A stretch of 42,558 bases of DNA from Chloroflexota bacterium (GTDB taxonomy: Bacteria; Chloroflexota; Limnocylindria; P2-11E), in the NCBI GenBank assembly GCA_028876375.1, contig JAGWSB010000010.1:1-42558 (forward strand). Reading direction: 5' to 3'. Below are positions 8,350 through 33,452 of the stretch, piece after piece (positions within the stretch are counted from its first letter, which is position 1; each line of letters starts with the position of its first letter). A program made the position numbers and the translations under genes. The notes beneath the pieces were generated by a model, which saw only the letters and a program-made list of their open reading frames with translations, did no database searches and had not been told where the DNA came from.

Positions 8350-8390
8350 CGGGACGTCCGGCCCTAGCCTTCCCTTCCGCGCCGTCCTGA

Positions 8391-8396
8391 TATGTT
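8391..8396 (+). promoter_or_regulatory. -10 element for the transketolase-family gene
   Basis: TATGTT ends six bases before the GTG at 8403. The same spacing is seen at pcrA, ligA, gatC and the methyltransferase fusion gene. Confidence 0.5.
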
Positions 8397-8402
8397 CCCG
8401 AC

Positions 8403-10760
8403 GTGGCGGTCACATCCGCGCCCGCACGCGCCGCTGACGCCGACATCGCACACCTCGAGGTCGTCAAGGACGTCGTCGACGAGCTCATCGACCTCTCGCT
8501 GAACTACCGTCAGAGCGGGCACCCCGGCGGCTCGCGGTCGAAGGTGCACATCCTCCTGTCGCTCCTTCTCACCGGAGCGATGCGCTGGGACCTGTGGCGC
8601 CCGTGGCGGCGCTTCGGCGACCGCCTCATCCTCGCCGCCGGGCACACCGTCCCCCTCGTATACGCGACGCTCGCCACGCTCGACGAGATCGTGCGCATCG
8701 AGCACGAGCGCCGCGGCGACGACCGCCTCGCGTTCCCCTTCGACGGCCGCTTCGCGCTGACGTGGGAGGACCTCCTCGGACTGCGCCACAACAAAGGACT
8801 GCCCGGGCACGCCGAGATGGCCGGGAAGACGCTCCTCCTCAAGTGGAACACCGGCCCCTCGGGCCATGGCCTCCCGCCGTCGGTGGGCGAGGCCGTCGCG
8901 CTCCGCGCCGCGGGGCTCGACGAGGTGAAGGTCTTCGCCATCGAGGGCGAGGGCGGGCTCACCCCCGGCGCGAGCCACGAGACGCGCAACTCGGCCTGGG
9001 GCCTCGGCTGCCACAACCTCGTGCTCCTCGTCGACTGGAACGACTTCGGGATCGACGAGAACCCGACCTCGAGCGTCGTGCACGGGACGCCGCGCGACTG
9101 GTTCGCCTCGTACGGCTGGCGCGTCCTGGGGACGGAGCACGGCAGCGAGTGGCCCGACGTGACCCGCGTCGTCCTCGAGGCGGCGCGCGGCGAGAACCCC
9201 GACAAGGTGCCGACGATGGCGTGGTTCCGCACGCGCAAGGGCCGCGGCTACCTCAAGTACGACTTCGGGTCGCACGGTACGCCGCACCCGCTGAACAGCC
9301 CGCCCTTCTGGCAGCTGCGCAAGGACTTCATGGCCAAGTACGGCGTCGAGTACGCGGGCGTGGACGCGCCCGCGCCCAAGGATCCGCGCGAGCTCCGCGA
9401 GCAGGCGCGCCGCAACCTCGAGATCGCGGCGTCGACGCTGCGGCGGCGGCCCGCGGCGGTCGCGGCCGTCTGCGACATGCTCCGCGCGCGCGCGGAGAGC
9501 GTGCCGGAGGAGATCCCGACGTTCCGCCTCGGCGGCGCGAGCGGCGCGATCCACCGCGACGAGCGCGTCACCGACTTCGAGCGGTACCCCGCGGAGATGT
9601 GGGCCAAGCCCGGAGAGTCGAAGCCGAACCGTGCCGCGCTCGCGGCGTGGGGCGCGTGGGTGAACTCGTTCGCGCGGAAGGAGTACGGGCGGCCGCTCGT
9701 CATCGCCATGTCGGCCGACCTGGCGGAGTCGACGAACATCGCCGGCTTCGCGAAGGGCTTCGGCGGCGTAGAGGGCTGGGGCTGGTACCAGCGCGACACG
9801 AACCCCACCGGAACGCTCCTGCCCCAGCAGATCACCGAGTTCACGAACGCCGGCATCGCCTGCGCCATCGCGTCGGTCAACCTCGCGGAGGATCCGTTCC
9901 GCGACTTCGACGGCTTCTGGGGCGCGTGCTCGACCTACGGCGCGTTCTCCTATCTCAAGTACGGCGAGATGCGGCTCTTCAGCCAGCTCGCGCAGGACTG
10001 CGAGCTGAAGGTGGGGAAGGTGATCTGGGTCGCCGGCCACTCGGGCCCGGAGACGGCGGACGATTCGCGGACGCACTTCGGCGTCTTCGAGACGGGTGTC
10101 ACGCAGCTCTTCCCCGACGGCGCCGTCATCGACGTCCACCCCTGGGAGTACAACGAGGTCCCCGTCGTGCTCGGCGCGGCGCTCCGCGAGAAGGCGCCCA
10201 TCGTCGCGCTCCACCTCACGCGTCCGGCCATCGCCATCCCCGACCGCGCCGCGCTCGGCATGCCGTCGCACTTCGCCGCCGCGAGGGGCGCGTACGTCCT
10301 GCGGCCGTACCGGCCGGGGCAGCCTCGGGGCGGCACGGTCTTCGTCCAGGGCACGTCGACCACGGCCAACCTGGTGAAGGTCCTCTCGGAGCTCGACGCG
10401 CGCGGCCTCAACGTGAAGGTCGTCGCCGCCGTCAGCCCGCAGCTGTTCGCGCTCCAGGATCGGGCGTACCGCGACTCCGTCGCGACGCTCGGCGACCGCC
10501 TCGACGCCATGGTCATCTCGAACCGCGCGCGGCGCGTGATGGGCGACTGGACAGCGAGTCCCCTCGTCGCGGAGTACTCGCTCACCTCGGATCAGGACGA
10601 CCGCTGGCGCACCGGCGGCACGGTCGACGAGGTGATCGCGGAGGCGCACCTCGCGCCGGAGCACCTCCTCGCGGGCATCGAGCGCTTCGTGCGCGACCGA
10701 GACGCGCGCCTCGCGCGCCTCGTCGACGCGGTCGCCGACGCGCGGAAGGACCGCGCCTAG
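8403..10760 (+). CDS. Transketolase-family thiamine diphosphate enzyme
   Basis: 785 aa, longer than the ~660 aa of classical transketolase. Residues 38-44 (SGHPGGS), AAGH at 78-81 and GPSGHG at 151-156 align with the ThDP and substrate histidine regions of transketolase. The ThDP/Mg motif reads GEG (182-184) and ends at N213, the correct 28-residue spacing, but the usual aspartate (GDG) is glutamate. A FGSHGTPH segment fits the active-site histidine before the pyrimidine-binding domain, which contains MSADLAEST. A role in pentose phosphate interconversion is the default reading. The extra length and the GEG motif leave open a different ketol-transfer or 2-oxoacid chemistry. The gene is expressed from its own leaderless-type promoter, upstream of the ABC permease. 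Confidence 0.88.
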   Translation: MAVTSAPARAADADIAHLEVVKDVVDELIDLSLNYRQSGHPGGSRSKVHILLSLLLTGAMRWDLWRPWRRFGDRLILAAGHTVPLVYATLATLDEIVRIEHERRGDDRLAFPFDGRFALTWEDLLGLRHNKGLPGHAEMAGKTLLLKWNTGPSGHGLPPSVGEAVALRAAGLDEVKVFAIEGEGGLTPGASHETRNSAWGLGCHNLVLLVDWNDFGIDENPTSSVVHGTPRDWFASYGWRVLGTEHGSEWPDVTRVVLEAARGENPDKVPTMAWFRTRKGRGYLKYDFGSHGTPHPLNSPPFWQLRKDFMAKYGVEYAGVDAPAPKDPRELREQARRNLEIAASTLRRRPAAVAAVCDMLRARAESVPEEIPTFRLGGASGAIHRDERVTDFERYPAEMWAKPGESKPNRAALAAWGAWVNSFARKEYGRPLVIAMSADLAESTNIAGFAKGFGGVEGWGWYQRDTNPTGTLLPQQITEFTNAGIACAIASVNLAEDPFRDFDGFWGACSTYGAFSYLKYGEMRLFSQLAQDCELKVGKVIWVAGHSGPETADDSRTHFGVFETGVTQLFPDGAVIDVHPWEYNEVPVVLGAALREKAPIVALHLTRPAIAIPDRAALGMPSHFAAARGAYVLRPYRPGQPRGGTVFVQGTSTTANLVKVLSELDARGLNVKVVAAVSPQLFALQDRAYRDSVATLGDRLDAMVISNRARRVMGDWTASPLVAEYSLTSDQDDRWRTGGTVDEVIAEAHLAPEHLLAGIERFVRDRDARLARLVDAVADARKDRA

Positions 10761-10774
10761 AGGGCACCGCGACC

Positions 10775-10780
10775 TAGACT
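10775..10780 (+). promoter_or_regulatory. -10 element for the permease operon
   Basis: TAGACT lies nine bases before the ATG at 10790, in the 29-bp gap after the transketolase-family gene. An out-of-frame GTG at 10786 would give no long protein. Confidence 0.35.
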
Positions 10781-10789
10781 GCCCCGTGC

Positions 10790-12514
10790 ATGGGGGCGGG
10801 GACGGAGCGGCCGCGTGCCTGGTCGCGGCGTCTCACGCCGACCGGCGTCTTCCTCGCGGCCGCCGTCGCGCTCTCGGCCGCGCTCTGCATCTACCCCGCG
10901 GCGACGCTCCTGCGGGGGAGCTTGTTCAGCGGAAGCATCAGCGATCCGGGCCCGGCGACGCTCCAGAACTACGTCTCCGTCTACGGCGACGGCGCCACCT
11001 ACGCGCTCTTCGGGACGACGCTCGTCTATGCCGTCGGGACCGCGGTCGCGGCCGTCGTCGTCGGCCTCGTCGTCGCGTGGATCGCCGTCCGCACGAACGC
11101 GCCCCTCGCGCGCCACATGGGCTGGCTCGTGTTCGCGACCTACGCGCTGCCGGGGACGCTCACGTCGATCGCCTGGATCCTGCTCGCGAACCCGAACACC
11201 GGGCTGCTCAACGAGCTCGCGAGATCGGTCCTCGGCCCCGACGCCACCCTCTTCAACGTGTACTCCTTCCTCGGGATGCTGTTCGTCTCCGTCGGGCACT
11301 CCTATGCGCTCGCCTTCGCGTTCCTCGCGGCGTCGCTCCACTCCACGGATCCGTCGCTCGAGGAGGCGGCCGGCACGTCGGGCGCGCGCCCTCTCACGGT
11401 CTTCTGGCGCGTCAACCTTCCTCTGGCGTGGCCCGCGCTGCTGTCGACGGCGACCATTCTCGTGATCCTCGGGCTCGAGTCGTTCGACGTGCCCGCCTTC
11501 GTCGGCATCCCCGCCAACGTCCGCGTGTTCAGCACGCAGATATTCGTCGAGACCTCCGTCCGCACCCCCCCGGACTTCGGGCGCGCGGCGACGTACGGCG
11601 TCCTCCCGCTGCTCGTGGCGCTCGGGCTGACGCTCGTCTACCAGCGCTCGATCGTGGCTCCGGAGCGCTACGCGACGATCCGCGGCAAGGCGTTCCGGCC
11701 GCGACGGCTCGACCTCGGCCGCTGGCGCTGGCCGGCGACCGGCGTATTCCTCGTCGTCTTCTTCGTCACCGCGCTACTGCCGGTCGCCACGCTCGTCCTC
11801 GTGTCGCTCGCGCCGACGCTCAGCGAGGCGACGTCCTTCGACGTGCGCACCTTCGGGCTGGGGAACTACGCGACGATCCTGGGCGATCCGGTCGCGCAGC
11901 GCGCCATCCGCAACACGCTGATCCTCGCCGCGCTCGGCGCGACGGCGGCGATGCTGCTCGCCTTCGGGGTCGCCCTCGCCTCGCTGCGCACGCGGCTGCG
12001 GGGTCGCGGCCTCGTCGAGTACGCCATATTCCTGCCGTTCGCGGTCCCCAGCGTGGTGCTCGCCGTGGGCATCCTGTGGGGGTACGTGTCGTTCCCCATC
12101 GGGGTCTACGGGACGATCTTCATCCTCCTGATCGGGTACGTGACGAAGTTCATGCCGTACGGTCTGCGTAGCGCGTCGACGTCGCTTCTGCAGATCCATC
12201 CCGAGCTCGAGGAGCAGGCCCGCGTCGCGGGCGCGTCGCTGGGCCAGACCATCCGCCGTGTCGTCATGCCGCTCATCCTCCCCGGCTTCGTCGCGGGGTG
12301 GACGCTCCTCGCCGTGGTGTTCATGCGCGAATTCAGCATGAGCATCCTGCTGTGGTCATCGGGGTCCGAGGTCGTCACCGTGCTGTTCTTCGATTACTGG
12401 ACGAACGGGCGGTTCGGTCTCGTCGCCGCGCTCGGCCTCCTGCTCATCGCCGTGTCCCTTGCCGTCGTGTTCGCCGTCCGGCGCGTCTCGCGCGTCGATA
12501 CGGTGGCGGCATGA
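10790..12514 (+). CDS. ABC transporter permease, FbpB/iron(III)-type, fused two-domain
   Basis: 574 aa with about twelve hydrophobic segments arranged as two permease domains. Each carries an EAA loop: EEAAGTSGA near 190 and EEQARVAGAS near 471, both followed by the conserved ...LPL/MPL..P segment that contacts the ATPase. Fused permeases of this class import Fe3+, thiamine or organic anions, depending on the binding protein. No ATPase gene is adjacent. The only substrate-binding protein in the window (19322-20437) is of the matching class but lies on the other strand of the convergent operon. The downstream CoA-metabolism genes suggest an organic substrate, which is inference. Confidence 0.92.
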   Translation: MGAGTERPRAWSRRLTPTGVFLAAAVALSAALCIYPAATLLRGSLFSGSISDPGPATLQNYVSVYGDGATYALFGTTLVYAVGTAVAAVVVGLVVAWIAVRTNAPLARHMGWLVFATYALPGTLTSIAWILLANPNTGLLNELARSVLGPDATLFNVYSFLGMLFVSVGHSYALAFAFLAASLHSTDPSLEEAAGTSGARPLTVFWRVNLPLAWPALLSTATILVILGLESFDVPAFVGIPANVRVFSTQIFVETSVRTPPDFGRAATYGVLPLLVALGLTLVYQRSIVAPERYATIRGKAFRPRRLDLGRWRWPATGVFLVVFFVTALLPVATLVLVSLAPTLSEATSFDVRTFGLGNYATILGDPVAQRAIRNTLILAALGATAAMLLAFGVALASLRTRLRGRGLVEYAIFLPFAVPSVVLAVGILWGYVSFPIGVYGTIFILLIGYVTKFMPYGLRSASTSLLQIHPELEEQARVAGASLGQTIRRVVMPLILPGFVAGWTLLAVVFMREFSMSILLWSSGSEVVTVLFFDYWTNGRFGLVAALGLLLIAVSLAVVFAVRRVSRVDTVAA

Positions 12515-13899
12515 GCGCGACGCGGGCCCTGGCGGAGTTCGCGCTCGGCGTCGACGCCGAGGCGACGCCCGAGGCGGTCCGTCACGAAGCGCTGCGGATC
12601 CTCGTCGACTGCGTCGGCTGCGCCGTCGCCGGGGTGGTGACGCCGGCCGGACGCATCGCGCTCGAGATGGCGCGCGACGAGCGCGGCCCGCTCACCGCCC
12701 GCCTCGTTGGCGGCGGCCGCGCGAGCCTCATGCCGGCCGCGTTCGCGACCACCGTGCTCTGCAACGCGCTCGACTACGAGCCCGTCGGGCCGGAGGGCCA
12801 CGTCTGCGCCGTCGCGGTGCCCGTCGCCCTCGCCGTGGCGGACGCCGTCGACGCGCCCGGAAGCGAGCTCCTTGCCGGGCTCCTCGCGGGGCTCGAGGCC
12901 GGCGGACGGGTCGGCGGTGCGCTGCGGCGGGTCGGGCAGTCCGGCGCGAAGGTGACCCCCGCCGTCCGCGGGACGGCGCATGCGGTCTTCGCCGCTGTGG
13001 CCGCGGCGGGGCGGATCCTCCGCCTCACGCCCGCGCAGATGCACGAGGCGTTCGGGATCGCCGGGTACAGCGCCACGCTCCCCACGCTGAAGAAGGTCAT
13101 GAGCTCGGAGCACGCGCCCATGACCAAGTACGACCACCTCGGCCTCATCGCGCAGAACGGGATCCAGGCGGCGCTCCTCGCGCGCAAGGGCTTCACCGGC
13201 GACCGCTCCGTCCTCGAGGGCGAGTACGGCTTCTGGCGGTTCGCCGGCGCGCTCGGCTACGACGAGGACTTCGTCACCCGCGACCTGGGCGCGACGTGGA
13301 CGATCGGCCAGACGTGGTTCAAGCGTTACCCCGTGATCCTCTACACGACGCCGGTCCTCGACACCGTACGACGGCTCATGGCCGAGAGCGGGCTCGTCGC
13401 CGACGCGATCGAGCGTGTCGAGGTCGCGACGACGCGTCCGAACGCGGTGCAAGCGGTCTCGGAGGTCCGCGACGAGATGGACGCCTGGACGAGCACTCCC
13501 TACAACGTCGCGGTCGCCGCCCACGACGTCCGGCCGCGACGGGCGTGGCAGCAGCCGGCGACATACCGTCGCCCCGACCTCGTCCGGCTCACGCGCGCCG
13601 TGACCGTGCGCGCGCTGCGCGCCGACGAGCTGCCGCCCGCGGGGAACTACTGGGAGGGCTGGTGCCCCGTCCGGGTCACTGTGCACTCCGGACAGGCGCA
13701 CGAGGGTGCCCAGGATCGCCTGCCGCGGATCGAGGACGACGAGATCGACAAGAAGTTCCGTGACAATGTCGTCGGCCTCCTGAGCGACGACGCGGCCGAG
13801 CGGCTGAGAACGGCCTGCTGGCGCGCGGCGGGCATCGGGAGCGCGCGGGAGATCACGGAGCTCATCGGAACGGCGACGGCGCCGGCGCGAGCGGGATAG
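12511..13899 (+). CDS. MmgE/PrpD family protein
   Basis: 462 aa starting at the ATG overlapping the permease stop (ATGA). The N-terminal helical region (DCVGCAVAG near 35-43) and the later KYDHLGLIAQNGIQAALLA and FKRYPVILYTT segments match the MmgE/PrpD fold. The family includes 2-methylcitrate dehydratase, cis-aconitate decarboxylase and many uncharacterised members. It usually acts as a hydro-lyase, decarboxylase or isomerase on polycarboxylates. The position between a permease and crotonases suggests it processes a catabolic intermediate. A methylcitrate cycle is not supported, since no prpB or prpC accompanies it. Confidence 0.88.
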   Translation: MSATRALAEFALGVDAEATPEAVRHEALRILVDCVGCAVAGVVTPAGRIALEMARDERGPLTARLVGGGRASLMPAAFATTVLCNALDYEPVGPEGHVCAVAVPVALAVADAVDAPGSELLAGLLAGLEAGGRVGGALRRVGQSGAKVTPAVRGTAHAVFAAVAAAGRILRLTPAQMHEAFGIAGYSATLPTLKKVMSSEHAPMTKYDHLGLIAQNGIQAALLARKGFTGDRSVLEGEYGFWRFAGALGYDEDFVTRDLGATWTIGQTWFKRYPVILYTTPVLDTVRRLMAESGLVADAIERVEVATTRPNAVQAVSEVRDEMDAWTSTPYNVAVAAHDVRPRRAWQQPATYRRPDLVRLTRAVTVRALRADELPPAGNYWEGWCPVRVTVHSGQAHEGAQDRLPRIEDDEIDKKFRDNVVGLLSDDAAERLRTACWRAAGIGSAREITELIGTATAPARAG

Positions 13900-13913
13900 G
13901 AGAGGAAGCACAC

Positions 13914-14744
13914 GTGAAGAGCTACGAGACGATCCTCATCGACAAGGCGGGCGGCGTCACGACGATCCGCTTCAACCGCCCCGACAAGCGGAACGCGATG
14001 AACCCGCAGCTGCACCGCGACATGTACGACGCGCTCACCGAGCTCGAGTTCGACGACGAGACCAAGGTCCTCGTGATCACCGGCCAGGGCGAGGCGTTCT
14101 GCGCGGGACAGGACCTCAAGGAGTACTTCTACGAGAAGAAGGACGACCCGCGCGGGCGTGAAGAGGCGCGCCGTATGTCGCACGCGTGGCGCCACCAGAA
14201 GCTGCGCTACTTCCCGCGTCCGACGATCGCCGAGATCAACGGGTGGTGCTTCGGCGGCGCGTTCACGGTCGTGGCGTCCGTCGACATCGCGGTCGCCGCG
14301 AGCGAGGCGACGTTCGGGCTCTCCGAGATCAACTTCGGGCACATTCCCGGCGGCCTCGTGACGAAGGTCGTGCAGGAGATCGTGCAGCCGCGCCAGGCGC
14401 TCTACTACATCCTCACCGGCGAGCCCTTCACCGGGGCGCGCGCCGCGGAGATCGGGCTCGTCACCATGGCCGTGCCGAAAGCCGAGCTCCACGCGAAGGT
14501 GATGGACATCGCGGCGACGCTCATGAAGAAGGATCCCGAGGCGATGCGCGCGTGCAAGGAGGTCTTCAAGGCCGTCACGCCCGAGGTGACCTACGAGGAC
14601 GCGTGGTACTGGCTCTCCTCCAAGTCGGACCAGCTCACCTACCGGCAGAAGGGCGGCTGGATCGAGGAAGGCATCGGACGCTTCATGAAGAAGGAGTACC
14701 GCCCGGGACTCGGCACGCCGCCGCCCGAGAAGGAGCGCGCCTAG
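13914..14744 (+). CDS. p-Hydroxycinnamoyl-CoA hydratase/lyase-like crotonase
   Basis: A 276-aa crotonase-fold enzyme with a GTG start behind AGGAGAGG. Several stretches match hydroxycinnamoyl-CoA hydratase-lyase (HCHL/FerB/Ech), which converts feruloyl- or coumaroyl-CoA to vanillin or 4-hydroxybenzaldehyde plus acetyl-CoA. These are AGQDLKEYF (Y71), the INGWCFGGAF oxyanion region, ATFGLSEINFG (E138), ALYYILTGEPF and a C-terminal YRPGL. E138 corresponds to the catalytic Glu143 of the Pseudomonas enzyme. The position of Ser123 is Thr118 here. Function is assigned by motif recall, not a search; a plain enoyl-CoA hydratase on another aromatic or branched acyl-CoA remains possible. Confidence 0.75.
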   Translation: MKSYETILIDKAGGVTTIRFNRPDKRNAMNPQLHRDMYDALTELEFDDETKVLVITGQGEAFCAGQDLKEYFYEKKDDPRGREEARRMSHAWRHQKLRYFPRPTIAEINGWCFGGAFTVVASVDIAVAASEATFGLSEINFGHIPGGLVTKVVQEIVQPRQALYYILTGEPFTGARAAEIGLVTMAVPKAELHAKVMDIAATLMKKDPEAMRACKEVFKAVTPEVTYEDAWYWLSSKSDQLTYRQKGGWIEEGIGRFMKKEYRPGLGTPPPEKERA

Positions 14745-14748
14745 GCCG

Positions 14749-15552
14749 ATGCCCGACCCCGCCGCACCGACGCCGATCTCACCGCACGTCCGCTGGACGC
14801 GGGACGACGCCGTCCTGACCGTCACGCTCGCGCGGCCCGAGGCGCGCAACGCGCTCACGCGCGAGATGCGCGAGGAGCTCGACCGCGTCCTCGCCTGGTG
14901 CGAGGGCGAGGGGTCCGTCCGCGTCGTCGTCCTCGCCGGGGACGGCCCCGCCTTCTGCGCGGGGCAGGACCTCAAGGAGAGCGCCGGCCCCGCCGGTCCC
15001 GCGGAGAGCGTGGAGGCCAAGCTGCGCGGAGATTTCCAGACCCGCCTCGCGTCGCTGCCGCAGGTGACGATCGCCGCTCTGCACGGCGCCGTCGTCGGGC
15101 GCGGCCTCGAGATCGCGCTCACGTGCGACATCCGCGTCGCCGGCGACGACGCGACCTTCGCCCTTCCCGAGGTCGGGCTGGGCATGATCCCCGCGAGCGG
15201 GGGAACGCAGAGGCTGCCGCGGCTCGTCGCGCCGGCCCGAGCGCTCGACATCATCCTTTCGGGTGAGCGCGTCGACGCCTCGACGGCGCTGTCGTGGGGT
15301 CTCGTCACGCGCCTCGTCCCCCTCGCGGAGCTGGCTCCGACGGTGCGCGAGCTCGCGCGACGGATCGCCACCCACGCGCCCATCGCCCTGCGCTACGCCA
15401 AGCGCGCCGTGCTCGAGGGAGAGCACCTCGCGCTCTCCGAGGGGCTGCACCTCGAGGCGACGCTCGCGGCGCTGCTGCGAACGACCGACGACCGCGCGGA
15501 AGGGATCCGCGCCTTCCGCGAGAAGCGGCCGCCGCGCTTCACCGGCCGGTGA
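14749..15552 (+). CDS. Enoyl-CoA hydratase/isomerase family protein
   Basis: A 267-aa crotonase. The first oxyanion element is AFCAGQDLK (69-76). The second is HGAVVGRGLEI, in which an Arg interrupts the usual GGG. Both acid/base glutamates of classical hydratases are present at the right 20-residue spacing (E121 and E141, the latter in LPEVGLGMIP). Syn-hydration of a 2-enoyl-CoA is therefore plausible. The gene starts 4 bp after the hydroxycinnamoyl-type crotonase gene and its stop overlaps the acyl-CoA synthetase start (GTGA), so all three are one operon. The exact substrate is unknown. Confidence 0.92.
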   Translation: MPDPAAPTPISPHVRWTRDDAVLTVTLARPEARNALTREMREELDRVLAWCEGEGSVRVVVLAGDGPAFCAGQDLKESAGPAGPAESVEAKLRGDFQTRLASLPQVTIAALHGAVVGRGLEIALTCDIRVAGDDATFALPEVGLGMIPASGGTQRLPRLVAPARALDIILSGERVDASTALSWGLVTRLVPLAELAPTVRELARRIATHAPIALRYAKRAVLEGEHLALSEGLHLEATLAALLRTTDDRAEGIRAFREKRPPRFTGR

Positions 15553-17759
15553 GCGGGCCGATCCCGGCGCATCGTCTCGCGCCGCTGTTCTCGGCGCGGT
15601 CGATCGCGGTCGTCGGCGCGAGCGAGCAGGGCTACGGCGCGGGCCCGGGGAACGCGCTCCGCGCGATCGGCTACGACGGACGCTGGTATCCCGTCAACCC
15701 CAAGCGCCTCGAGGTGCAGGGCGTCCGCTGCTATCCCGACGTAGCGGACATCCCGGAGCGCATCGACCTCGCCGTCATCGTCGTCGGGCGCGACCGCGTG
15801 CCGGCGACCCTCGCCGCGTGCGCCGAGCGCGGCGCGCGCGCCGCCGTCGTCGTGTCGGCCGGCTTCGCCGAGTCCGGCGAGCGAGGCGCGCAGCTCCAGC
15901 GCGAGCTCTCCCGCGTCGCCCGCGACCGCGGCGTGCTCGTCGTCGGCCCGAACTGCTTCGGCGTGGCCTCGCTCGTGACGCGCTCCGCGGGCTTCACCGG
16001 ACACGGCCTCGGAAGCGCGCGCCGCGGGAGCGTCGCCGTCCTCTCGAACAGCGGCGGCCTCCTCAACGAGGTCATCTCGTACGGGAACGCGCGGGGGATC
16101 GCCTTCAGCCACCTGGCGTCGACGGGTAACGAGGCCGGCGTCACCGGGGCCGACGTCCTCGACTTCTACGTCGACGATCCGGCGACCGAGGTCGTGCTCG
16201 CGATCCTCGAGACGGTGCGCGATCCGCGCCTCTTCGTCGAGGTCGCGGATCGTGCGCGCACCGCGGGCAAGCCGATCGTCGTGCTGAAGATCGGCTCCTC
16301 CGAGAAGGCCGCGCGCGCGGCGCTCACGCACACCGGCGCGCTCGCCGGCAGCGATGCGGTCTACTCGGCGCTCTTCCGCCAGAAAGGCATCCTGCGTGTG
16401 CGCGACCTCGACGAGCTCGTCGAGGTCGGCGCCCTCCTCTCCGGCGCTTCGCCCGTGCTACGCCGACGGCGTCTCGAGCGTGCCGCGATCGTCGAGATCT
16501 CGGGTGGCGGCAAGGGTCTCGCCTGCGATGCCGCCGCCGCGGCGGGCCTCGAGCTGCCCGATCTCTCGCCGGCCGTCGCGTCGGCGCTCGACGGCTTCGT
16601 CGCTCCGGGGGCGCGAATCGAGAATCCGCTGGACACCGGCCTCACCTGGGGCGGCGCGGACATGGAGCGCCTGTATCCGCGCGCGCTCGACGCCCTCGCG
16701 AGTGAGGACGCGATCGACGTGGTCGTCTCGCGCTTCACCATCCCCGCGGACGGGCCGCTCGGGCCGATCCGCGCGCGCGTCGACGAGATGATCGCCGCGC
16801 GCGAAGCGCATCCGGATCGCCTCTTCGTCGTCCTGTCGCGCACCTGCGACCGCTTCAGCGACGAGTGGCGCCGTGTGCTCGCGGACGACCGCGTTCTCTT
16901 CGTCCAGGGCTACGGGCGCGGTCTGGCGTCGCTGGGGGCGCTCGCCCGGTACAGCCGGCACCTACGGCGCGGCGCCGAGCCGGCCGGGGTCGCCTCGGTG
17001 GGGATCGCGCGCGAGGTCGTCGTCCCGGACCGGAGCGGCGCACTCGACGAGATCGCGTCGAAGGACCTGCTCCGGGGCGCCGGCCTCCCCGTGCTCCCGA
17101 CCGCGCTCGCGGTGAGCGCCGACGATGCCGTCCGCCTCGCGCGCGGGTACGGCCATCCCGTGGCGCTCAAGGTCGTGTCGCCGGAGATCGTCCACAAGAG
17201 CGACAGCGGCGGAGTGCTCCTGGGCCTGGGCGACGACGACGCGGTCCGCGAGGGCTTCGACCGGCTGCGCGACGTGGCGCGCGGCGCGGGCGCGCCGTTC
17301 ACGGGCGTCGCCGTCCAGCCGATGGCCACGCCCGGCCTCGAGCTCGTCATCGGCGCCCACCGCGATGAGCAGTTCGGCCCCGTCGTCCTCTTCGGCCTCG
17401 GCGGCGTCTTCGTCGAGACGCTGCGCGACGTCGCGCTGCGCGTCGCGCCGGTCGACGACGTCGACGCTCGGGAGATGCTCGACGAGATCGCCGGGAGCGC
17501 GCTCCTCCGCGGCGCACGCGGCCGGCCGGCCGTCGACCGCGGTGCCCTAGCAGACGCTCTGTGCCGGCTGGGGGCGCTCATGATCGCGGTCCCACGTATC
17601 GCGTCCGTGGACCTCAATCCCGTCATCGCCCGGGCCGACGGTGTCGTCGCGGTCGACGCGCGCGTCCTCCTCGCGGCGCGCGAGGATCAGCCGGCGACGG
17701 GTCGGACGTCGGCGAGCGTGAACGGCGCGGCGTCGCCGTCGGGCGTCACGTCGCGGTAG
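15549..17759 (+). CDS. ADP-forming acyl-CoA synthetase (acetate-CoA ligase type)
   Basis: 736 aa from the GTG coupled to the upstream crotonase. Order of parts: a CoA-binding Rossmann domain (SIAVVGASE near 17); the succinyl-CoA-synthetase-like domains with VGPNCFGV and the phosphohistidine loop THTGALAG (H261); then the ATP-grasp beta part (KVVSPEIVHKSDSGGV) with FGLGGVFVE near the end. This class makes an acyl-CoA from acid, ATP and CoA via an acyl phosphate. It includes FerA, the feruloyl-CoA synthetase of Sphingobium, which fits the HCHL-like gene two genes upstream. Acetate or other acids remain possible. The last ~24 codons overlap the 3' end of the convergent DUF35 gene and may be a non-conserved tail. 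Confidence 0.9.
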   Translation: MSGPIPAHRLAPLFSARSIAVVGASEQGYGAGPGNALRAIGYDGRWYPVNPKRLEVQGVRCYPDVADIPERIDLAVIVVGRDRVPATLAACAERGARAAVVVSAGFAESGERGAQLQRELSRVARDRGVLVVGPNCFGVASLVTRSAGFTGHGLGSARRGSVAVLSNSGGLLNEVISYGNARGIAFSHLASTGNEAGVTGADVLDFYVDDPATEVVLAILETVRDPRLFVEVADRARTAGKPIVVLKIGSSEKAARAALTHTGALAGSDAVYSALFRQKGILRVRDLDELVEVGALLSGASPVLRRRRLERAAIVEISGGGKGLACDAAAAAGLELPDLSPAVASALDGFVAPGARIENPLDTGLTWGGADMERLYPRALDALASEDAIDVVVSRFTIPADGPLGPIRARVDEMIAAREAHPDRLFVVLSRTCDRFSDEWRRVLADDRVLFVQGYGRGLASLGALARYSRHLRRGAEPAGVASVGIAREVVVPDRSGALDEIASKDLLRGAGLPVLPTALAVSADDAVRLARGYGHPVALKVVSPEIVHKSDSGGVLLGLGDDDAVREGFDRLRDVARGAGAPFTGVAVQPMATPGLELVIGAHRDEQFGPVVLFGLGGVFVETLRDVALRVAPVDDVDAREMLDEIAGSALLRGARGRPAVDRGALADALCRLGALMIAVPRIASVDLNPVIARADGVVAVDARVLLAAREDQPATGRTSASVNGAASPSGVTSR

Positions 17760-18121
17760 ACGACCTCGACCGGCATGCCGATCCGCACCTCGGCGGGTTC
17801 GCAGCCGACGACGTTCGTGCCGTACATCGGCCCTTCCGCGAGCTCGATGAGCGCATACACGTACGGCAGCTCGTCGGCGAAGCCGGGGTGGAAGGCGAAG
17901 CGGTGCACGTTGAACGCGAAGATCCTTCCGCGGCCGCTCGCCGGGACCCACTCCATGTTCCCGTAGAAGGGCTCGGGCGGGCAGGCGCGGCAGTACGCGA
18001 CCGGCCAGTACGAGCGGCCGCAGCGCTTGCAGCGGAACACGAGGAACTCGTGGCGCCGCAGTCCCTCCCAGAACGGCTGGTTGTCCGCATCGACGTTCGG
18101 AAGCGGCTTGTTCCAGGACAT
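17687..18121 (-). CDS. DUF35 OB-fold / rubredoxin-like zinc ribbon protein
   Basis: 144 aa from the ATG at 18121, two bases after the thiolase-like stop; a longer frame upstream would overlap that gene. The N-terminal helix (NQPFWEGLRRHEF) leads to a four-cysteine ribbon (C31, C34, C44, C47) and then an OB fold (PYVYALIELAEG). DUF35 proteins bind thiolase-fold partners and help deliver or hold the acyl-CoA, as in archaeal thiolase/HMG-CoA synthase and bacterial steroid aldolase complexes. The adjacent gene encodes exactly such a partner. The 3' end overlaps the opposite-strand acyl-CoA synthetase by 73 bp. Confidence 0.93.
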   Translation of the reverse strand: MSWNKPLPNVDADNQPFWEGLRRHEFLVFRCKRCGRSYWPVAYCRACPPEPFYGNMEWVPASGRGRIFAFNVHRFAFHPGFADELPYVYALIELAEGPMYGTNVVGCEPAEVRIGMPVEVVYRDVTPDGDAAPFTLADVRPVAG

Positions 18122-18123
18122 GG

Positions 18124-19314
18124 CTAAGCGTCCCGTCCGAGGAGCAGCGTGCCGTGGGTCGAGCACATGCCCGGCCGCAAGATCTCGCCGCCGTGGCCGC
18201 TGACGATCGCGACCTCCGCGTCCTTCGCCTGTCGCTCGCCGCCGTCGCCGCGGAGCTGCGTGACCGCCTCGACGAACGGCGTCCAGTCGGCCATGTAGTA
18301 GCCCGAGAGGAGGCCGCCGCCGGTGTTGACCGGGATGGACCCGCCGGGCGCGATGGCCCCCGACGCGACGAACGGTCCGCCCTCACCTTTCGCGCACCAC
18401 CCGTAGTCCTCGACCTGGAGGACGACCTCGGTGGTGAAGCAGTCGTACAGCTCCGCGACGTCGACGTCCGCGAGGGTGAGCCCGGCCTGGCCGAACGCGG
18501 ACTCCTTCGCCGTCGCCACGGCGAGGTTCGTGTAGTTCCTCTTCTCCCACCACAGCTCGCGCATGGCCTCGCCGAGCCCGAGACCCAGGACGCCGATAGG
18601 TGGGCGGCGCAGGCTGCGGGCGCGCTCCATCGTCGTGATGACGAAGGCGGCACCGCTGTCGCTCTGGAGACAGAGGTCGAGCTTGCGGTACGGCTCGACG
18701 AAGAACGGCGAGGCACGGTAGTCGTCGAGGGTGAGCGGCCGCCCGTACATCTGCGCTCGCGGGTTGAGGCACGCCCAGCGGCGGTGCGAGACGGCCACCA
18801 TCCCGAGCTGGTCCGACGTCGTGCCGAACTCGTGCATGTGGCGCGACGCGAAGAACGAGTGGTGCGAGGCCGCGGCGAGGTCCCCGTGCGGCCGGCCCCA
18901 CAGGCCGTCGCGCTCGCGATGCCGCTGGCGCCTCTCGCCCGCTCCGCGGGTGTCCGACCAGTCCGTCGCGCCGTAGCCGACGGCGACGTATGTCGCGATC
19001 CCGAGCTCGAGGAGCTGCGTCGCCGCGAGGATCGCCAGGTGCGTCATGATCCCGCCGCGCTGGACGGTGAAGTACGTCTTGGCCGGGAGGCCGAGGATGC
19101 GGGCGTAAGAATCGGTCCAGCCGCGCGACTCGCCGGATCCCGACTCGATCCGAGTATTGATCGCGGCATCGACGTCCTCGCGTCGCAGGCCGGCGTCCTC
19201 GATCGCGAGCCGTACGGCCTCGACCTCCAGCGTCCGCGCGGTCTTGCCGGGAAAGCGTCCCGCCAGGAACGCCATCCCGGCGATCGCGTACTTCCCCGAG
19301 AACGCGTGCGTCAT
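18124..19314 (-). CDS. Thiolase-fold protein (lipid-transfer/aldolase type)
   Basis: 396 aa of the thiolase superfamily, SCP-x/Ltp branch. Where a thiolase has its nucleophilic cysteine, the segment reads FTVQRGGIM (82-90), with no cysteine, so ordinary thiolysis is unlikely. The later motifs ELYDCFT (Y290), NTGGGLLSGYY (Y339/Y340) and SGHGGE resemble Ltp aldolases. As I recall, these use two tyrosines about 50 residues apart for retro-aldol cleavage of a 3-hydroxyacyl-CoA side chain. The DUF35 gene follows immediately, forming the usual two-subunit unit. Acting after the hydratases of the facing operon would be sensible, but this is inference. Confidence 0.85.
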   Translation of the reverse strand: MTHAFSGKYAIAGMAFLAGRFPGKTARTLEVEAVRLAIEDAGLRREDVDAAINTRIESGSGESRGWTDSYARILGLPAKTYFTVQRGGIMTHLAILAATQLLELGIATYVAVGYGATDWSDTRGAGERRQRHRERDGLWGRPHGDLAAASHHSFFASRHMHEFGTTSDQLGMVAVSHRRWACLNPRAQMYGRPLTLDDYRASPFFVEPYRKLDLCLQSDSGAAFVITTMERARSLRRPPIGVLGLGLGEAMRELWWEKRNYTNLAVATAKESAFGQAGLTLADVDVAELYDCFTTEVVLQVEDYGWCAKGEGGPFVASGAIAPGGSIPVNTGGGLLSGYYMADWTPFVEAVTQLRGDGGERQAKDAEVAIVSGHGGEILRPGMCSTHGTLLLGRDA

Positions 19315-19321
19315 CCCGCCG

Positions 19322-20437
19322 TCATTTGAGCAGCGCGGTGAGGTACTTCGTCATCTCGTCGAACTTGTCCTTGGGCAGGTCGGGCAGCAGCTCGTAGTCG
19401 ATCGCGTCCGCTCCCGGGATCGCGCTCTTCACCCCCGGCACGGTGATCGGGTAGCCCAGATCGCCCGAGAGCTGGAGGTACTCCTTCGAGAAGAAGAGGT
19501 CCTCCGCGACCTTCGTCGCCTCGGGGTGCGGGGGCTTGGAGGCCAGCGCGAACGCGCCGTTCCCCGCGACCATGGGATCCATGCGCATGTAGTCCATGTT
19601 CCCGTTCGGGCCGCCGACCGAGAGCACGTGCGTCATGAAGCCGATGCCGATGGGGAACTGGCCCTGGTTGACGTTGGTCGACACGGTGAGGCCCGACGAG
19701 AAGTTCGTCGCGCCCTGTGCCTTCAGACCGGAGAAGAACGCCTTCGCCTTGTCCTCGCCCATCTGCTGCCGGATCACGTAGAACCAGCGGAGGAACGTCT
19801 CGTTGAGGGTCGGGTCGACCATCGCGATCTTGCCCTTCCACTTGGGCAGCAGCAGGTCCTCGAGGGTCTTCGGCGCATCCGCGGGAGCCACGAGCTTCTT
19901 GTTGTAGATGACCGTCTGCGGGAACAGGGTGAAGACCGCGTAGTACCCGTCGGGGTCGCGCCACTTCTCCGGCACCCGCTCGATGATCGCCTTCGGCAGC
20001 TTCACGAGGTAGCCCTGCTTCGCGAGCGCGGGCATGTAGACGGACTCGACGATGAAGAAGTCGCACAGGTCCTTCCCCGCGCTCTTCTCCGTCTCGAAGC
20101 GGCTCATCGCCTGCGCGGTCGGCGCCCGGTAGTTCTCGAGCGCGATCCCGGCTCGCTTGTCGAGGACGTCCTTCAGCGCCTTCCACTGAGAGTCGATGAG
20201 GACGCCGTATCCGACGACCTTGCCCTCGGCCTTGGCTTTGGCGAGGTCCGGCGCGAAGGCCGCCGCCGCCGCCGACCCGCTCGGCGCGGCGGCTGAGGCG
20301 GTCGGCGCCGACGAGGGGCTCGGAGCGGCCGCGGGCGCGCAGGCGGCGACGAACGCGCCCACCGTTCCCAGCCCCGCGATGCGAAGGAGCTCGCGCCGCG
20401 ACAGCCCGCGCTGAGACGCCATTGACCGGCGATCCAT
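19322..20437 (-). CDS. ABC transporter substrate-binding lipoprotein, iron-type family
   Basis: 371 aa. The N-terminus has a Tat-like twin arginine (SRRELLRIAG, 13-22) and a lipobox ending at C33 (FVAAC), then an Ala/Ser/Pro-rich tether to about 60. The mature part is a class II periplasmic-binding fold (KVVGYGVLIDSQW, FTLFPQTVIYNKK, LLLPKWKGKIAMVDP) of the Fe3+/organic-anion group that pairs with FbpB-type permeases. A GGGAGGGAA ribosome site precedes the ATG at 20437; a second ATG at 20422 would shorten the leader but keep the Tat motif. It is likely co-transcribed with the thiolase-like gene 7 bp downstream. No tyrosine-rich iron site could be confirmed, so the ligand is open. Confidence 0.9.
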   Translation of the reverse strand: MDRRSMASQRGLSRRELLRIAGLGTVGAFVAACAPAAAPSPSSAPTASAAAPSGSAAAAAFAPDLAKAKAEGKVVGYGVLIDSQWKALKDVLDKRAGIALENYRAPTAQAMSRFETEKSAGKDLCDFFIVESVYMPALAKQGYLVKLPKAIIERVPEKWRDPDGYYAVFTLFPQTVIYNKKLVAPADAPKTLEDLLLPKWKGKIAMVDPTLNETFLRWFYVIRQQMGEDKAKAFFSGLKAQGATNFSSGLTVSTNVNQGQFPIGIGFMTHVLSVGGPNGNMDYMRMDPMVAGNGAFALASKPPHPEATKVAEDLFFSKEYLQLSGDLGYPITVPGVKSAIPGADAIDYELLPDLPKDKFDEMTKYLTALLK

Positions 20438-20521
20438 CGTCTATTCCCTCCCCGCGTTCGAAGCCGAAAGGGTAGATCAGGCGACAGCGTGGATACGCCC
20501 GCCCCGTTGCAGATCGCCCTG

Positions 20522-21727
20522 CTAGCCGACGTCCTCCCATCGCAGGCCGAGCTTCCGGACGCGGTCCGCTATTCGCGGGTGGCTGTAGAACCAGATCTCC
20601 TCCCACCGCGGGGGCTCGGGATCGGAGAGGTTCTGGTCGGCGAGGCGCACGAGCGCCCGGCCCATCGAGTCGGGCGACGTGTGACGCGCGCCGAAGACGT
20701 CGGCCGCGCTCTCGCGCCAACGTGTGAACGCCATCAGGGCGGGGCGGCCGACGAAGGAGAGCAGCGCGAGGGCTGCCGCGACCAGGGGATACGAGGCGGG
20801 ATCCGCGACGCCTCCCACCGGTCCGACGGCGCCGGCGGCGCAGCCCGCGGCGCCGCAGATGACGCGGTCGAGCGCGACGCGGATGACGACGAGCGCCGCC
20901 GCGCCGGCGATCCCGAGCGCGACGACGTAGCGAGGAGGATCGCCGCTCACGTCGTGGCCGACCTCGTGCGCGACGACCGACTCGACCTCTTCCATCGGGA
21001 AGCGCTCGAGGAGCGTGTCGCCGAGGACGATGCGCTTCGTCGGTCCGACGCCGAGGACGGCGGCGTTCGCGGCCGTCGTCTTCGCGGCCATCCCCCAGCG
21101 GTAGACGCCCGAGACGCGAACGCCCGCGCGCTCCGCGACGGCGCGCACGCGTTGTGCGACCTCGGCATCGGCGAGCGGCTCGAAGCGGAAGAAGAGCCCC
21201 GCCAGCGTCGGTCCGGCGAGCGTTCCCGCCGCGCTGAGGACGAGCGATCCGACGATCGTCCAGGCCGCCCACTCGGGCCGCACGAGGATCAGGTACCACG
21301 CCGTCACGGGGACGCCGACCAGGACCACCGTGATGACGAGCGCCTTGGCGCGGTCCGCGAGCTCGCCCCGCCAGCTCTGAACGACGAGGCCCTCGCGTCG
21401 TCCGCGCCTCCAACCGAGGTATGCCTCCGGCAGCGCCACGAGCGAGCCGATGAGCGTGAAGACGACGATGACGAGGTACGTGACGCCCGCGCGCACCGGA
21501 GTGCCGCCCGGGCAGCTCACGAGATCGCACGGCCGCGCGCCACCTTGCAAGAGATGCGCGAACGCGTCGCGGACGGCGACGCCCGTCCCCGCCCAGTAGA
21601 GCCCGAGCATGACGACGATCCCGACCGCGGCCGTCACGAGCTCGAGCGCGAGGCTGAACTTCCGGTACGACCGCGCTCGCCTCAGCCGATCGGGATCCAT
21701 GCGCGGCCGCCGCGCGGCGTCGATCAC
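20522..21727 (-). CDS. M48 family membrane metalloprotease (Ste24/HtpX-like)
   Basis: 401 aa from a GTG overlapping the upstream stop (GTGA); an ATG at 21700 is an alternative. Four hydrophobic segments lie at about 26-46, 82-100, 128-148 and 155-178. The zinc motif HEVGH is at 254-258 with the preceding TKRIVLGDTLL typical of the family. Two more membrane spans follow, then RESAADVFG with the third ligand, and a C-terminal FYSHPRIADRV. M48 enzymes cleave misfolded or prenylated membrane proteins; the cysteine-rich loop and topology are nearer Ste24 than HtpX. It is coupled to the methyltransferase-membrane fusion gene. Confidence 0.93.
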   Translation of the reverse strand: MIDAARRPRMDPDRLRRARSYRKFSLALELVTAAVGIVVMLGLYWAGTGVAVRDAFAHLLQGGARPCDLVSCPGGTPVRAGVTYLVIVVFTLIGSLVALPEAYLGWRRGRREGLVVQSWRGELADRAKALVITVVLVGVPVTAWYLILVRPEWAAWTIVGSLVLSAAGTLAGPTLAGLFFRFEPLADAEVAQRVRAVAERAGVRVSGVYRWGMAAKTTAANAAVLGVGPTKRIVLGDTLLERFPMEEVESVVAHEVGHDVSGDPPRYVVALGIAGAAALVVIRVALDRVICGAAGCAAGAVGPVGGVADPASYPLVAAALALLSFVGRPALMAFTRWRESAADVFGARHTSPDSMGRALVRLADQNLSDPEPPRWEEIWFYSHPRIADRVRKLGLRWEDVG

Positions 21728-23184
21728 GCCGACAGTCTGAGCGCGACCGCGACCGAGGCCACCAGGATGGAGACGGCGACGAGCCAGCGCAGCGCCCCCT
21801 CGGGCGTGGCGATGAGCCGGTCGCGATCCAGCATGACGCGGTCGCCGTTCGTCATGCGCATCTCGCCCGACACGGCAGCCGTGCGGCGGCGCAGCGTGCG
21901 CACCCACGTGCTCAGCGTGCGCTCCCACGTGCTCAGCGTGCGCTGCGCGTAGCTCAAGGCGAGCGCGTAGAGCGCCGCGACGAGCGCCGCGGGCGTGAGC
22001 GAGCCTCCGCTTGCGTACGCGCCGGTGAGGACGGGCAGTGCACCCCACGCGATGGCGAACCAGGCGTCGCTGTGCAGGCGCCCGCCCGCCAGCTCGAGCG
22101 GATAGCCGATGGCCAGGGCGACACCGGCGGCCATGAAGAGGAGGAGGCCGGGCCCGAGGACGCCTAGGCCGACGACGCCGAGAGCGACCGCGCCGCCGAT
22201 GCCGGCGACGGCGAGCGCGCGCAGCACGGCATCGGGGATCCGCGTGCGCAGCGGCCGTCCGTTGAGCTCGTCGAGCGCGTGCGCGCCGATGCCGAGCGCG
22301 AGAAAGAAGGCGAGCAGCGTCGAGAGGAGGCGGTCCGGTCGCAGCGCCGTGGCCACCGCGGCGCCGAGGACGACGTAGCTGAGGTGCCACAGCAGGTATG
22401 GCAGGTGGAGGAGCGTGAGGTAGTCGCGCCAGGCTCCGGGAGCGAGCGCGTAGAACGCGGGACGAACGGGGTCCGCCACGGTGGGAACGTCCGCGCCGCC
22501 GGTCGCGGCGCGGACGCGACCCCACGTCACCGCAGCCGCGCCGAGCGACAGTGTCTCGCTCCGAACGTCGGTGATGCCCGCGCTGCGCCAGACGTCCTCC
22601 ATCCGGTAGCGATCGCAGAAGCGGTCGATGGAGCGACCGAGGAACGCGCCGACGTCGCGCCACTGCGCCGACACGAGCGAGCCGACGAGGGGGAGGCCGA
22701 AGCGCGTGTACGTCCACCAACCGAGCCGCAGCGGCAGCGCGCGCGGACGATCGAACTCGAGCATGGCGATGCGGCCCCCCGGCCGGACGACGCGCGCGAG
22801 CTCACGCAGCGTCGCCACGGGGTCGTCGACGTAGCGCAGGAGATATGTGACCGTCAGGCCGTCGAACGTCGCGTCGGGGAAGGGGAGGCGCTCGGCGCGA
22901 CCGAGCACGAACGCGATCCCGTCCGAACGGTCGGCAGCGCCGACCATGCCCGCGACGAGGTCGAGGCCGACCACGCGGCAGCCGCTGCGGCGCAGCTCCC
23001 GGGCCACGAGTCCCGTGCCCGTCGCGACGTCGAGGTATCTCTCGATCGCGCGCGGCGCCGCCCTCTCGACGAGCCGATGTCGCCAGCCCGACTCGAGCCC
23101 GAGGCTCAGCAGCGTGCTCGCGCGCTCGTAGTCCGGACCGAGCGGCGGAAAGAGCACGTCCGGTCGAACGTCGGTGGGGATCAT
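21724..23184 (-). CDS. UbiE-like methyltransferase fused to a polytopic membrane domain
   Basis: 486 aa. Residues 1-225 are a class I SAM methyltransferase: DVATGTG (52-58, motif I), GLDLVAGM, RAERLPFPDATFD, and RVVRPGGRIAMLEF. This is closest in style to UbiE/MenG quinone methyltransferases. Residues ~240-410 hold about six membrane segments, with ALDELNGRPLRT in a loop. A short repeat (TLSTW twice) comes next, then one last membrane helix at the C-terminus. Methylation of a lipid or quinone and its handling in the membrane is plausible; I do not recognise the membrane domain. The start is six bases after a TAGCAT hexamer. The stop overlaps the M48 gene. Confidence 0.85.
   Translation of the reverse strand: MIPTDVRPDVLFPPLGPDYERASTLLSLGLESGWRHRLVERAAPRAIERYLDVATGTGLVARELRRSGCRVVGLDLVAGMVGAADRSDGIAFVLGRAERLPFPDATFDGLTVTYLLRYVDDPVATLRELARVVRPGGRIAMLEFDRPRALPLRLGWWTYTRFGLPLVGSLVSAQWRDVGAFLGRSIDRFCDRYRMEDVWRSAGITDVRSETLSLGAAAVTWGRVRAATGGADVPTVADPVRPAFYALAPGAWRDYLTLLHLPYLLWHLSYVVLGAAVATALRPDRLLSTLLAFFLALGIGAHALDELNGRPLRTRIPDAVLRALAVAGIGGAVALGVVGLGVLGPGLLLFMAAGVALAIGYPLELAGGRLHSDAWFAIAWGALPVLTGAYASGGSLTPAALVAALYALALSYAQRTLSTWERTLSTWVRTLRRRTAAVSGEMRMTNGDRVMLDRDRLIATPEGALRWLVAVSILVASVAVALRLSA
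21892..21954. repeat. 21-bp in-frame tandem repeat, two and a half copies
   Basis: Units at 21892-21912 and 21913-21933 differ at one base; a third copy from 21934 decays after about eleven bases. The 21-bp period encodes seven-residue units (TLSTWxR) in the loop before the last membrane helix of the methyltransferase fusion, so copy-number change would keep the frame. Confidence 0.85.
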
Positions 23185-25769: not shown

Positions 25770-26074
25770 GTGAGATCGATCCTGGCGTCGTCCGCTATGT
25801 CGCCGACCTCGCGCGCATCGCGTTGACCGACGAGGAGGTCGACCGCTTCGCGGCGCAGCTCTCCGTCGTCCTCGACGCCGTCGGGAAGCTCCGCGAGGTC
25901 GACACCGAGCACATCTCGCCGACGGCATCGGTCCTCCCGCTCGAGAACGTTCTGCGCGAGGACGAGGCCCGCGAGGGCCTGACCGTCGAGGAGGCCATGC
26001 GCAACGCCCCCGCGCGCGACGGCGACCTGTTCCGCGTTCAGACGGTCATCGAGGAGCGGCCGTCGGGTGGCTGA
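25766..26074 (+). CDS. gatC: Asp-tRNA(Asn)/Glu-tRNA(Gln) amidotransferase subunit C
   Basis: 102 aa from the GTG at 25766; an open frame upstream of it overlaps the nitroreductase gene and lacks family resemblance. The protein begins with the conserved VRYVADLARIALTDEEVDRFAAQLSVVLD helices and ends with LRED...NAPARDGDLFRVQTVIE, the GatA-GatB bridging tail. GatC stabilises the amidotransferase complex that converts Glu-tRNA(Gln) and Asp-tRNA(Asn). It is followed by gatA with an 8-bp overlap. Confidence 0.95.
   Translation: MSEIDPGVVRYVADLARIALTDEEVDRFAAQLSVVLDAVGKLREVDTEHISPTASVLPLENVLREDEAREGLTVEEAMRNAPARDGDLFRVQTVIEERPSGG

Positions 26075-31859: not shown

Positions 31860-33452
<1,593 letters not shown>

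Follow-up and report, generated by a model that had tools for sequence, protein, structure and literature searches.

In the FerA/FerB ferulate operon of Sphingobium SYK-6 (relatives: L084, L094), a nucleoside diphosphate (NDP)-forming acyl-CoA synthetase adjoins a crotonase of the hydroxycinnamoyl-CoA hydratase/lyase (HCHL) family. The steroid side-chain sets, Shy-Sal of Comamonas and ChsH1/ChsH2-Ltp2 of the Actinomycetota, combine a hydratase with a thiolase-fold retro-aldolase and a DUF35 protein. Here we consider a block of eight genes, 9.7 kb in length, that has likenesses to both. It lies in a 42,558-nucleotide stretch of DNA from a Chloroflexota bacterium of the Limnocylindria (JAGWSB010000010.1, assembly GCA_028876375.1); this whole stretch, which we call the window, lies on contig C134 of a 134-contig assembly that is about 90% complete. 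The original prediction was of a CoA-dependent catabolic block of phenylpropanoid type, parallel to FerA/FerB. Its view of the block as CoA-dependent and of side-chain type is supported, but equivalence to FerA/FerB is not established. With a probability of roughly 0.55, we read the genes and the predicted structures as pointing to an accessory cassette that would import and degrade an organic acid, with CoA activation followed by hydration and retro-aldol cleavage. The parts of the block are known and their combination is apparently new: the HCHL family of hydroxycinnamate metabolism and the steroid-type Sal/Ltp2-DUF35 retro-aldol family are joined in what would be one transferable unit of an uncultured lineage.

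Organization of the block

All eight genes are long open reading frames with curated-family support in family scans, at the positions originally named, and the predicted arrangement as two convergent operons is borne out by their spacing. Five genes lie on the plus strand and three on the minus strand, with a tail-to-tail overlap of 73 nt. The plus operon begins with an ATP-binding cassette (ABC) importer permease of the PhnU2/Fe-type family, with two fused permease domains (10790..12514; PF00528, BPD_transp_1, twice), which is joined through an ATGA overlap to an MmgE/PrpD-family gene (12511..13899; PF03972, 146 bits; PF19305, 51 bits). After 14 nt comes a predicted HCHL-family hydratase or hydratase/lyase (13914..14744; NF006588, 323 bits against a cut-off of 276), after 4 nt a second crotonase, ECH2, of the ordinary enoyl-CoA hydratase (ECH) type (14749..15552; PF00378, 207 bits), and, through a GTGA overlap, a single-chain ADP(NDP)-forming acyl-CoA synthetase (15549..17759; PF13380, CoA_binding_2; PF13607, Succ_CoA_lig; PF13549, ATP-grasp_5). 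The minus operon runs from a solute-binding protein of lipoprotein/Tat type (20437-19322), placed in the permease's importer family by a sub-threshold PhnS-type match, through an SCP2-thiolase-fold protein predicted to be a Sal/Ltp2-type retro-aldolase (19314-18124; PF22691), to a DUF35 protein with a zinc ribbon and an OB fold (18121-17687; PF01796, 73 bits), the genes being separated by 7 and 2 nt.

The thiolase-fold protein and its DUF35 partner

Is the product of 18124..19314 a thiolase? We rejected a plain thiolase on its residues: alignments show no Cys in residues 83-98, the thiolase nucleophile region, and the motif Y290-D-C292-F stands where SCP2 thiolases have HDCF. Without the nucleophilic Cys thiolysis is precluded; SCP2 thiolases carry HDCF, TbSLP carries YDCF and is a proposed aldolase, and CtSal acts through Tyr302 and Cys304, which lie in its YDCY motif (PMC12329534). 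In the window protein Y290 aligns with Tyr294 of Ltp2, and Tyr340 with Ltp2 Tyr344. A fold search with the predicted model (pLDDT 82, pTM 0.88) gave first 4u4e, an uncharacterised protein, and then 6ok1 (Ltp2-ChsH2) and 9myr (Sal-Shy), with SCP2 thiolases ranked below Ltp2 and Sal. In the tree the protein sits with paralogues from the genus in a well-supported clade of its own; Ltp2 is on a long branch and Sal is outside the tree sample. The best PDB match of the DUF35 protein is the DUF35 of Sal-Shy (9myr_B, 91 bits), followed by ChsH2 (6ok1_B), and its zinc ribbon is of the C4 kind (Cys31/34/44/47), as in ChsH2 and in contrast to the C3H1 ribbon of Shy. Given the YDCF motif, the absent Cys, the Sal-Shy-like DUF35 and the fold ranking, the best reading of the pair, though not a proven one, is a putative retro-aldolase, and the earlier guess of an aldolase-type function for it has stood up. 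If confirmed, such a function would extend the Sal-like aldolases beyond steroids, and would supply a role for the widespread 'acetyl-CoA acetyltransferase'/DUF35 annotations that cannot be thiolases.

The likeness to the steroid sets thus includes the YDC/YDH motif, the lack of a nucleophilic Cys and a DUF35 protein nearest to that of Shy. In contrast to those sets, the hydratases of the window are crotonases rather than MaoC proteins, its DUF35 is a standalone C4 protein rather than a fused C3H1 one, no steroid genes are nearby, and the block brings its own synthetase and its own importer. One might instead see a general side-chain module resembling β-oxidation, with the thiolase-fold/DUF35 pair as an acyltransferase or Claisen-type enzyme in the manner of PhlABC, BbsAB or the archaeal HMG-CoA-synthase complex, and the crotonases as plain hydratases. 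Those complexes too have DUF35 partners, and the matches include BbsB, PhlC and archaeal thiolases. The residues at 83-98 and the YDCF motif, however, argue against such chemistry, as does the rank of Ltp2 and Sal above those folds, and we consider this module improbable.

The HCHL-like crotonase and the synthetase

By sequence, the best solved relatives of the HCHL-like crotonase are HCHLs (PDB 6p5u, 6l3o and 2vss, 232-243 bits), and a fold search with its model (pLDDT 75) returned 31 HCHL-family chains, from 2j5i, 2vss, 2vsu, 6l3o, 6l3p, 6p5u, 7xwc and 7xwt, before any other crotonase. The tree places it within the HCHL family with 100/100 support against other crotonases, so that it groups, as the original prediction would have it, with the HCHLs and not with fatty-acid hydratases. 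Tyr71 and Glu138 align with HCHL Tyr75 and Glu143, which we take from the HCHL structure papers to be catalytic, and Ser235 occupies the position of Tyr239. Tyr239 was rejected as a test of HCHL function, and Ser235 is not decisive, because the Tyr is likewise missing from a Sphingobium FerB-like protein and from 6p5u, a hydratase/aldolase of HCHL type that comes from a lignin-degrading consortium.

Does the window then encode a FerA/FerB-like phenylpropanoid route? In such a route the synthetase would activate ferulate, p-coumarate or a relative, the HCHL-like enzyme would yield an aromatic aldehyde and acetyl-CoA, and the other genes would finish side chains. The family score, the fold and the retained equivalents of Tyr75 and Glu143 all favor it, and the loss of Tyr239, being shared with 6p5u, is not decisive against it. 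Operons with an NDP-forming synthetase, an HCHL and an aldehyde dehydrogenase occur in Sphingobium and Neorhizobium, and a synthetase with an HCHL in Sagittula; the window has in common with FerA/FerB the domain architecture and catalytic His of the synthetase, and the fold and Glu of the HCHL. The window crotonase lies, however, outside the clade of all known-structure HCHLs in the tree, a clade that also holds all the plasmid-borne HCHLs found with an AMP-ligase or NDP-synthetase and an aldehyde dehydrogenase. Forcing it into that clade costs 58.6 log-likelihood units (approximately unbiased (AU) test, p = 6.5e-8). It belongs to a basal set without resolved branching, together with homologues from G159, G584, Roseomonas OT10 and Binatia-type metagenome-assembled genomes (MAGs), and one of the copies of G322. 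Most members of this set read SEINF or SEVNF in place of the SEINW or SEVNW of known HCHLs, and the basal homologues also pass NF006588 (279-353 bits). If our reading of the cassette is confirmed, the annotation 'p-hydroxycinnamoyl CoA hydratase/lyase' would be unsafe for the basal branch of the family.

The synthetase keeps its phospho-His261 in a THTGA motif; the equivalent catalytic residue of FCS1 is His267 (PMC6388921). Its closest solved structure is a 4-hydroxybutyrate-CoA ligase (8wzu, 340 bits). In the best tree it is on a long branch outside the 100/100 clade of FerA-type synthetases that adjoin HCHL genes (Sphingobium, Sagittula, Neorhizobium). Its union with the FerA types is not firmly rejected (AU p = 0.059), and its union with the synthetases of two aldolase operons described below (L129, L132) has an AU p of 0.44. 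One synthetase that is only partly present (L126, genome G516) was left out of the counts. ECH2 falls below the threshold of every NCBIfam equivalog listed, and its best non-self match (52%, 229 bits) is a crotonase adjoining the HCHL homologue at L063.

Compared with FerA/FerB, the block lacks an aldehyde dehydrogenase and a major facilitator superfamily transporter, and has in addition an ECH, the Sal-like aldolase/DUF35 pair, the MmgE/PrpD protein and the ABC importer. No vanillin dehydrogenase or ring-cleavage gene had been seen in the window, and Pfam scans of the window genes tested agree, showing no aldehyde dehydrogenase and no ring-cleavage dioxygenase. The genome, at about 90% completeness, shows neither an intradiol dioxygenase (PF00775) nor a Rieske oxygenase (PF00848); one LigB-family protein is encoded on another contig. 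These negatives weaken the case for aromatic catabolism but do not exclude it, because the assembly may lack some 10% of the genome and any aldehyde formed might be used elsewhere. A phenylpropanoid substrate is possible but not favored, and a full FerA/FerB-like route seems to us rather unlikely.

Importer, MmgE/PrpD protein and possible substrates

What acid might be imported? The transporter parts of the original prediction are present as a permease and a binding protein, but the block has no ATPase gene to go with them. The best NCBIfam model for the permease is PhnU2 (115 bits against a cut-off of 593), and for the solute-binding protein it is the 2-aminoethylphosphonate binding protein (50 bits against 310), which would place the two in the broad PhnS2/PhnU2 family only, the equivalog scores being missed. 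The solute-binding protein also matches Fe-type binding proteins in the PDB, and the permease matches, at 34%, a permease adjoining the HCHL homologue of L009. The MmgE/PrpD protein has no NCBIfam match at E 0.001, and hence is no PrpD (2-methylcitrate dehydratase) equivalog; it is recognized by its Pfam domains only. Its nearest solved structures are B. subtilis 'IRG1' (7bra, 87 bits), cis-aconitate decarboxylase and IDS-epimerase.

These affinities bring in a second kind of substrate, a short, branched dicarboxylate or an acid derived from a tricarboxylate, like itaconate, mesaconate or citramalate, which would be degraded by the same logic of activation, hydration and retro-aldol cleavage. 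The Sal-like aldolase would then replace a lyase of the citramalyl-CoA type, and the MmgE/PrpD protein would be a decarboxylase, dehydratase or isomerase. Consistent with this are the nearest relatives of the MmgE/PrpD protein and the small-anion family of the importer. The nearest basal HCHL homologues adjoin CoA-transferases, acyl-CoA dehydrogenases and tricarboxylate-type transporters, as well as a citryl-CoA lyase, which leaves room for a substrate other than a phenylpropanoid, and the best models of the neighboring CaiB proteins are succinate-glutarate and succinyl-CoA:mesaconate CoA-transferases, all below threshold. Every one of these similarities is, however, weak and at sub-family level, the HCHL proteins whose function is known act on aryl compounds, and tricarboxylate-type transporters carry aromatic acids too. 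We regard a dicarboxylate as an unlikely answer when taken in this specific form, while noting that the genes would suit a side-chain-bearing aromatic or alicyclic acid as well as a branched short dicarboxylate.

Recurrence of parts of the block

Do the genes travel together elsewhere? The co-occurrence looked for in relatives is found for several sub-sets, in unrelated genomes, but for the full set in none. One sub-set, with both crotonases, is in G159 (L063), whose phylum is distant from that of the window and belongs to the same phylum group as a Binatia MAG. Here a single-strand run encodes an AMP-ligase, HCHL (57% identity to the window protein), ECH (52%), esterase, aldolase (38%), DUF35 (43%) and acyl-CoA dehydrogenase. 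The HCHL-ECH order is that of the window; an AMP-forming ligase and an acyl-CoA dehydrogenase replace the ADP-forming synthetase, and the contig has neither importer nor MmgE/PrpD gene. No further run of this kind was found in its class, represented by that one genome, or in a larger sample of its phylum. In the window's own phylum, G481 (L129) and G727 (L132) have an operon of synthetase (ACD), DUF35, ECH and aldolase, four gene families of the window in another order, and no HCHL, MmgE/PrpD or importer gene was detected beside them. A literature search, with most subscription papers outside its scope, found no description of these operons or of the eight-gene combination.

Other sub-sets involve the importer. 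Contig C33 of the window genome encodes a permease (38%), a binding protein, an aldolase (60%) and a DUF35 protein (53%), and the same pair of aldolase (58%) and DUF35 (54%) is present in a congener. In Binatia-type MAGs (L009, L011, L012) binding proteins adjoin the HCHL homologue, accompanied in L009 by a permease, and these transporter parts match the same PhnS2/PhnU2 models as the window importer. G749 has an aldolase, a DUF35 protein and a 28% match to the MmgE/PrpD protein. By gene content, the recurring sub-sets tie the majority of the block's parts together.

Several of these loci are of interest in themselves. The C33 set (L121, 20-10003) is a second importer set of the same genome, with two binding proteins, permease, amidase, aldolase and DUF35, and a third aldolase/DUF35 pair on C33 (L122, 2000-3510) is accompanied by sugar-type ABC permeases, which hints that importer-aldolase cassettes form a family with parallel members. 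The Binatia/Deltaproteobacteria-type MAGs have a conserved run (L009, 1-10815; L011, 1894-11117; L012, 496-7817) of crotonase, FabK-like flavoprotein, fused double CaiB CoA-transferase, binding proteins of the Fe/2-aminoethylphosphonate type, HCHL homologue and acyl-CoA dehydrogenase, apparently an undescribed pathway. In two other genomes of the same class as the window (L042, 8191-10341; L043, 2504-4545) the HCHL-family gene occurs with paired CaiB CoA-transferases and NitT-type ABC permeases, a further variation on this theme, and in L042 it also has an aldehyde dehydrogenase beside it.

A proposed pathway

From the weakened aromatic case and the dicarboxylate-compatible neighbors, we adopt the chemistry and leave the substrate aside. 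In the cassette that we favor, a carboxylic acid would be taken up by the permease and its solute-binding protein, which would use an ATPase encoded at another place in the genome, and the ADP-forming synthetase, to judge from its family, would convert it to a CoA thioester by way of phospho-His261. One or both crotonases, the HCHL-family enzyme with its Glu138 and ECH2, would hydrate the α,β-unsaturated acyl-CoA to a β-hydroxyacyl-CoA, which the HCHL-like enzyme may also be able to cleave. The Sal/Ltp2-like protein with DUF35 would carry out retro-aldol cleavage of the β-hydroxyacyl-CoA to an aldehyde or ketone and acetyl- or propionyl-CoA, Tyr290 being the likely base and Cys292 (or Tyr340) the acid. 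As a guess, the MmgE/PrpD protein might hydrate, dehydrate or isomerize the acid or a product. A tentative refinement, in which we have a good deal less confidence, is that the HCHL-family crotonase is a dedicated hydratase that hands its β-hydroxyacyl-CoA to the separate aldolase/DUF35 pair, served by the block's own importer and ADP-forming activation; if true, the two half-reactions of HCHL would here be split over two proteins.

Several observations weigh against the cassette. The block includes no transporter ATPase, acyl-CoA dehydrogenase, aldehyde dehydrogenase or regulator gene. The whole set of eight was found in no single genome outside the window, and the orthology of the window synthetase, on its long branch, with the recurring synthetases is not established. 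In the relatives, activation is by other enzymes, a CaiB CoA-transferase or an AMP-ligase, and because of this difference it is by inference that the steps are ordered as above.

An accessory unit

The block is an accessory unit, because it is a single clean insertion or deletion relative to the congener G003. When the window was compared by BLASTN with the G003 locus (L119), 10745-20514 was exactly absent, and the matches to 8388-10744 and 20515-21731 adjoin in G003 (8010/8007). There the transketolase stop is directly followed by the M48 peptidase stop, so the block lies exactly between two gene ends. The flanks are colinear, with UvrD, a phosphoenolpyruvate (PEP)-mutase family protein, DNA ligase, transketolase, M48 peptidase, methyltransferase and pirin. 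A gain in the window genome and a loss from G003 would both fit; the HCHL-like gene is in none of the four congeners. We rejected mobile-element boundaries, as the junctions have no tRNA, long repeat or transposase. It might be argued that metagenome assembly produced the block artificially, or that its genes are chance neighbors without joint function, given the fragmented, incomplete assembly and the absence from the congener. The colinear flanks, the placement between gene ends, a G+C content the same as that of the flanks, the translational overlaps within the operons and the recurrence of sub-sets elsewhere all argue otherwise, and we think such an origin very improbable.

A few features of the flanks may be recorded. 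A fragment of an IS1595-type (ISXO2-like) transposase lies at the left contig edge (2-706, minus strand), 10 kb from the block. The transketolase-like protein next to the block (8403-10760) is divergent, scoring 90 bits against a 488-bit cut-off, and is 67-90% conserved across the class. Within 20 kb, the block is flanked by a gene of the PEP-mutase/isocitrate-lyase family (3624-4463), which the congener shares, and by a gene for malate synthase (31860-33452). A selenocysteine tRNA that ARAGORN places inside a strong amidase gene (26572-26664, minus strand, within 26067-27539) is probably a false call.

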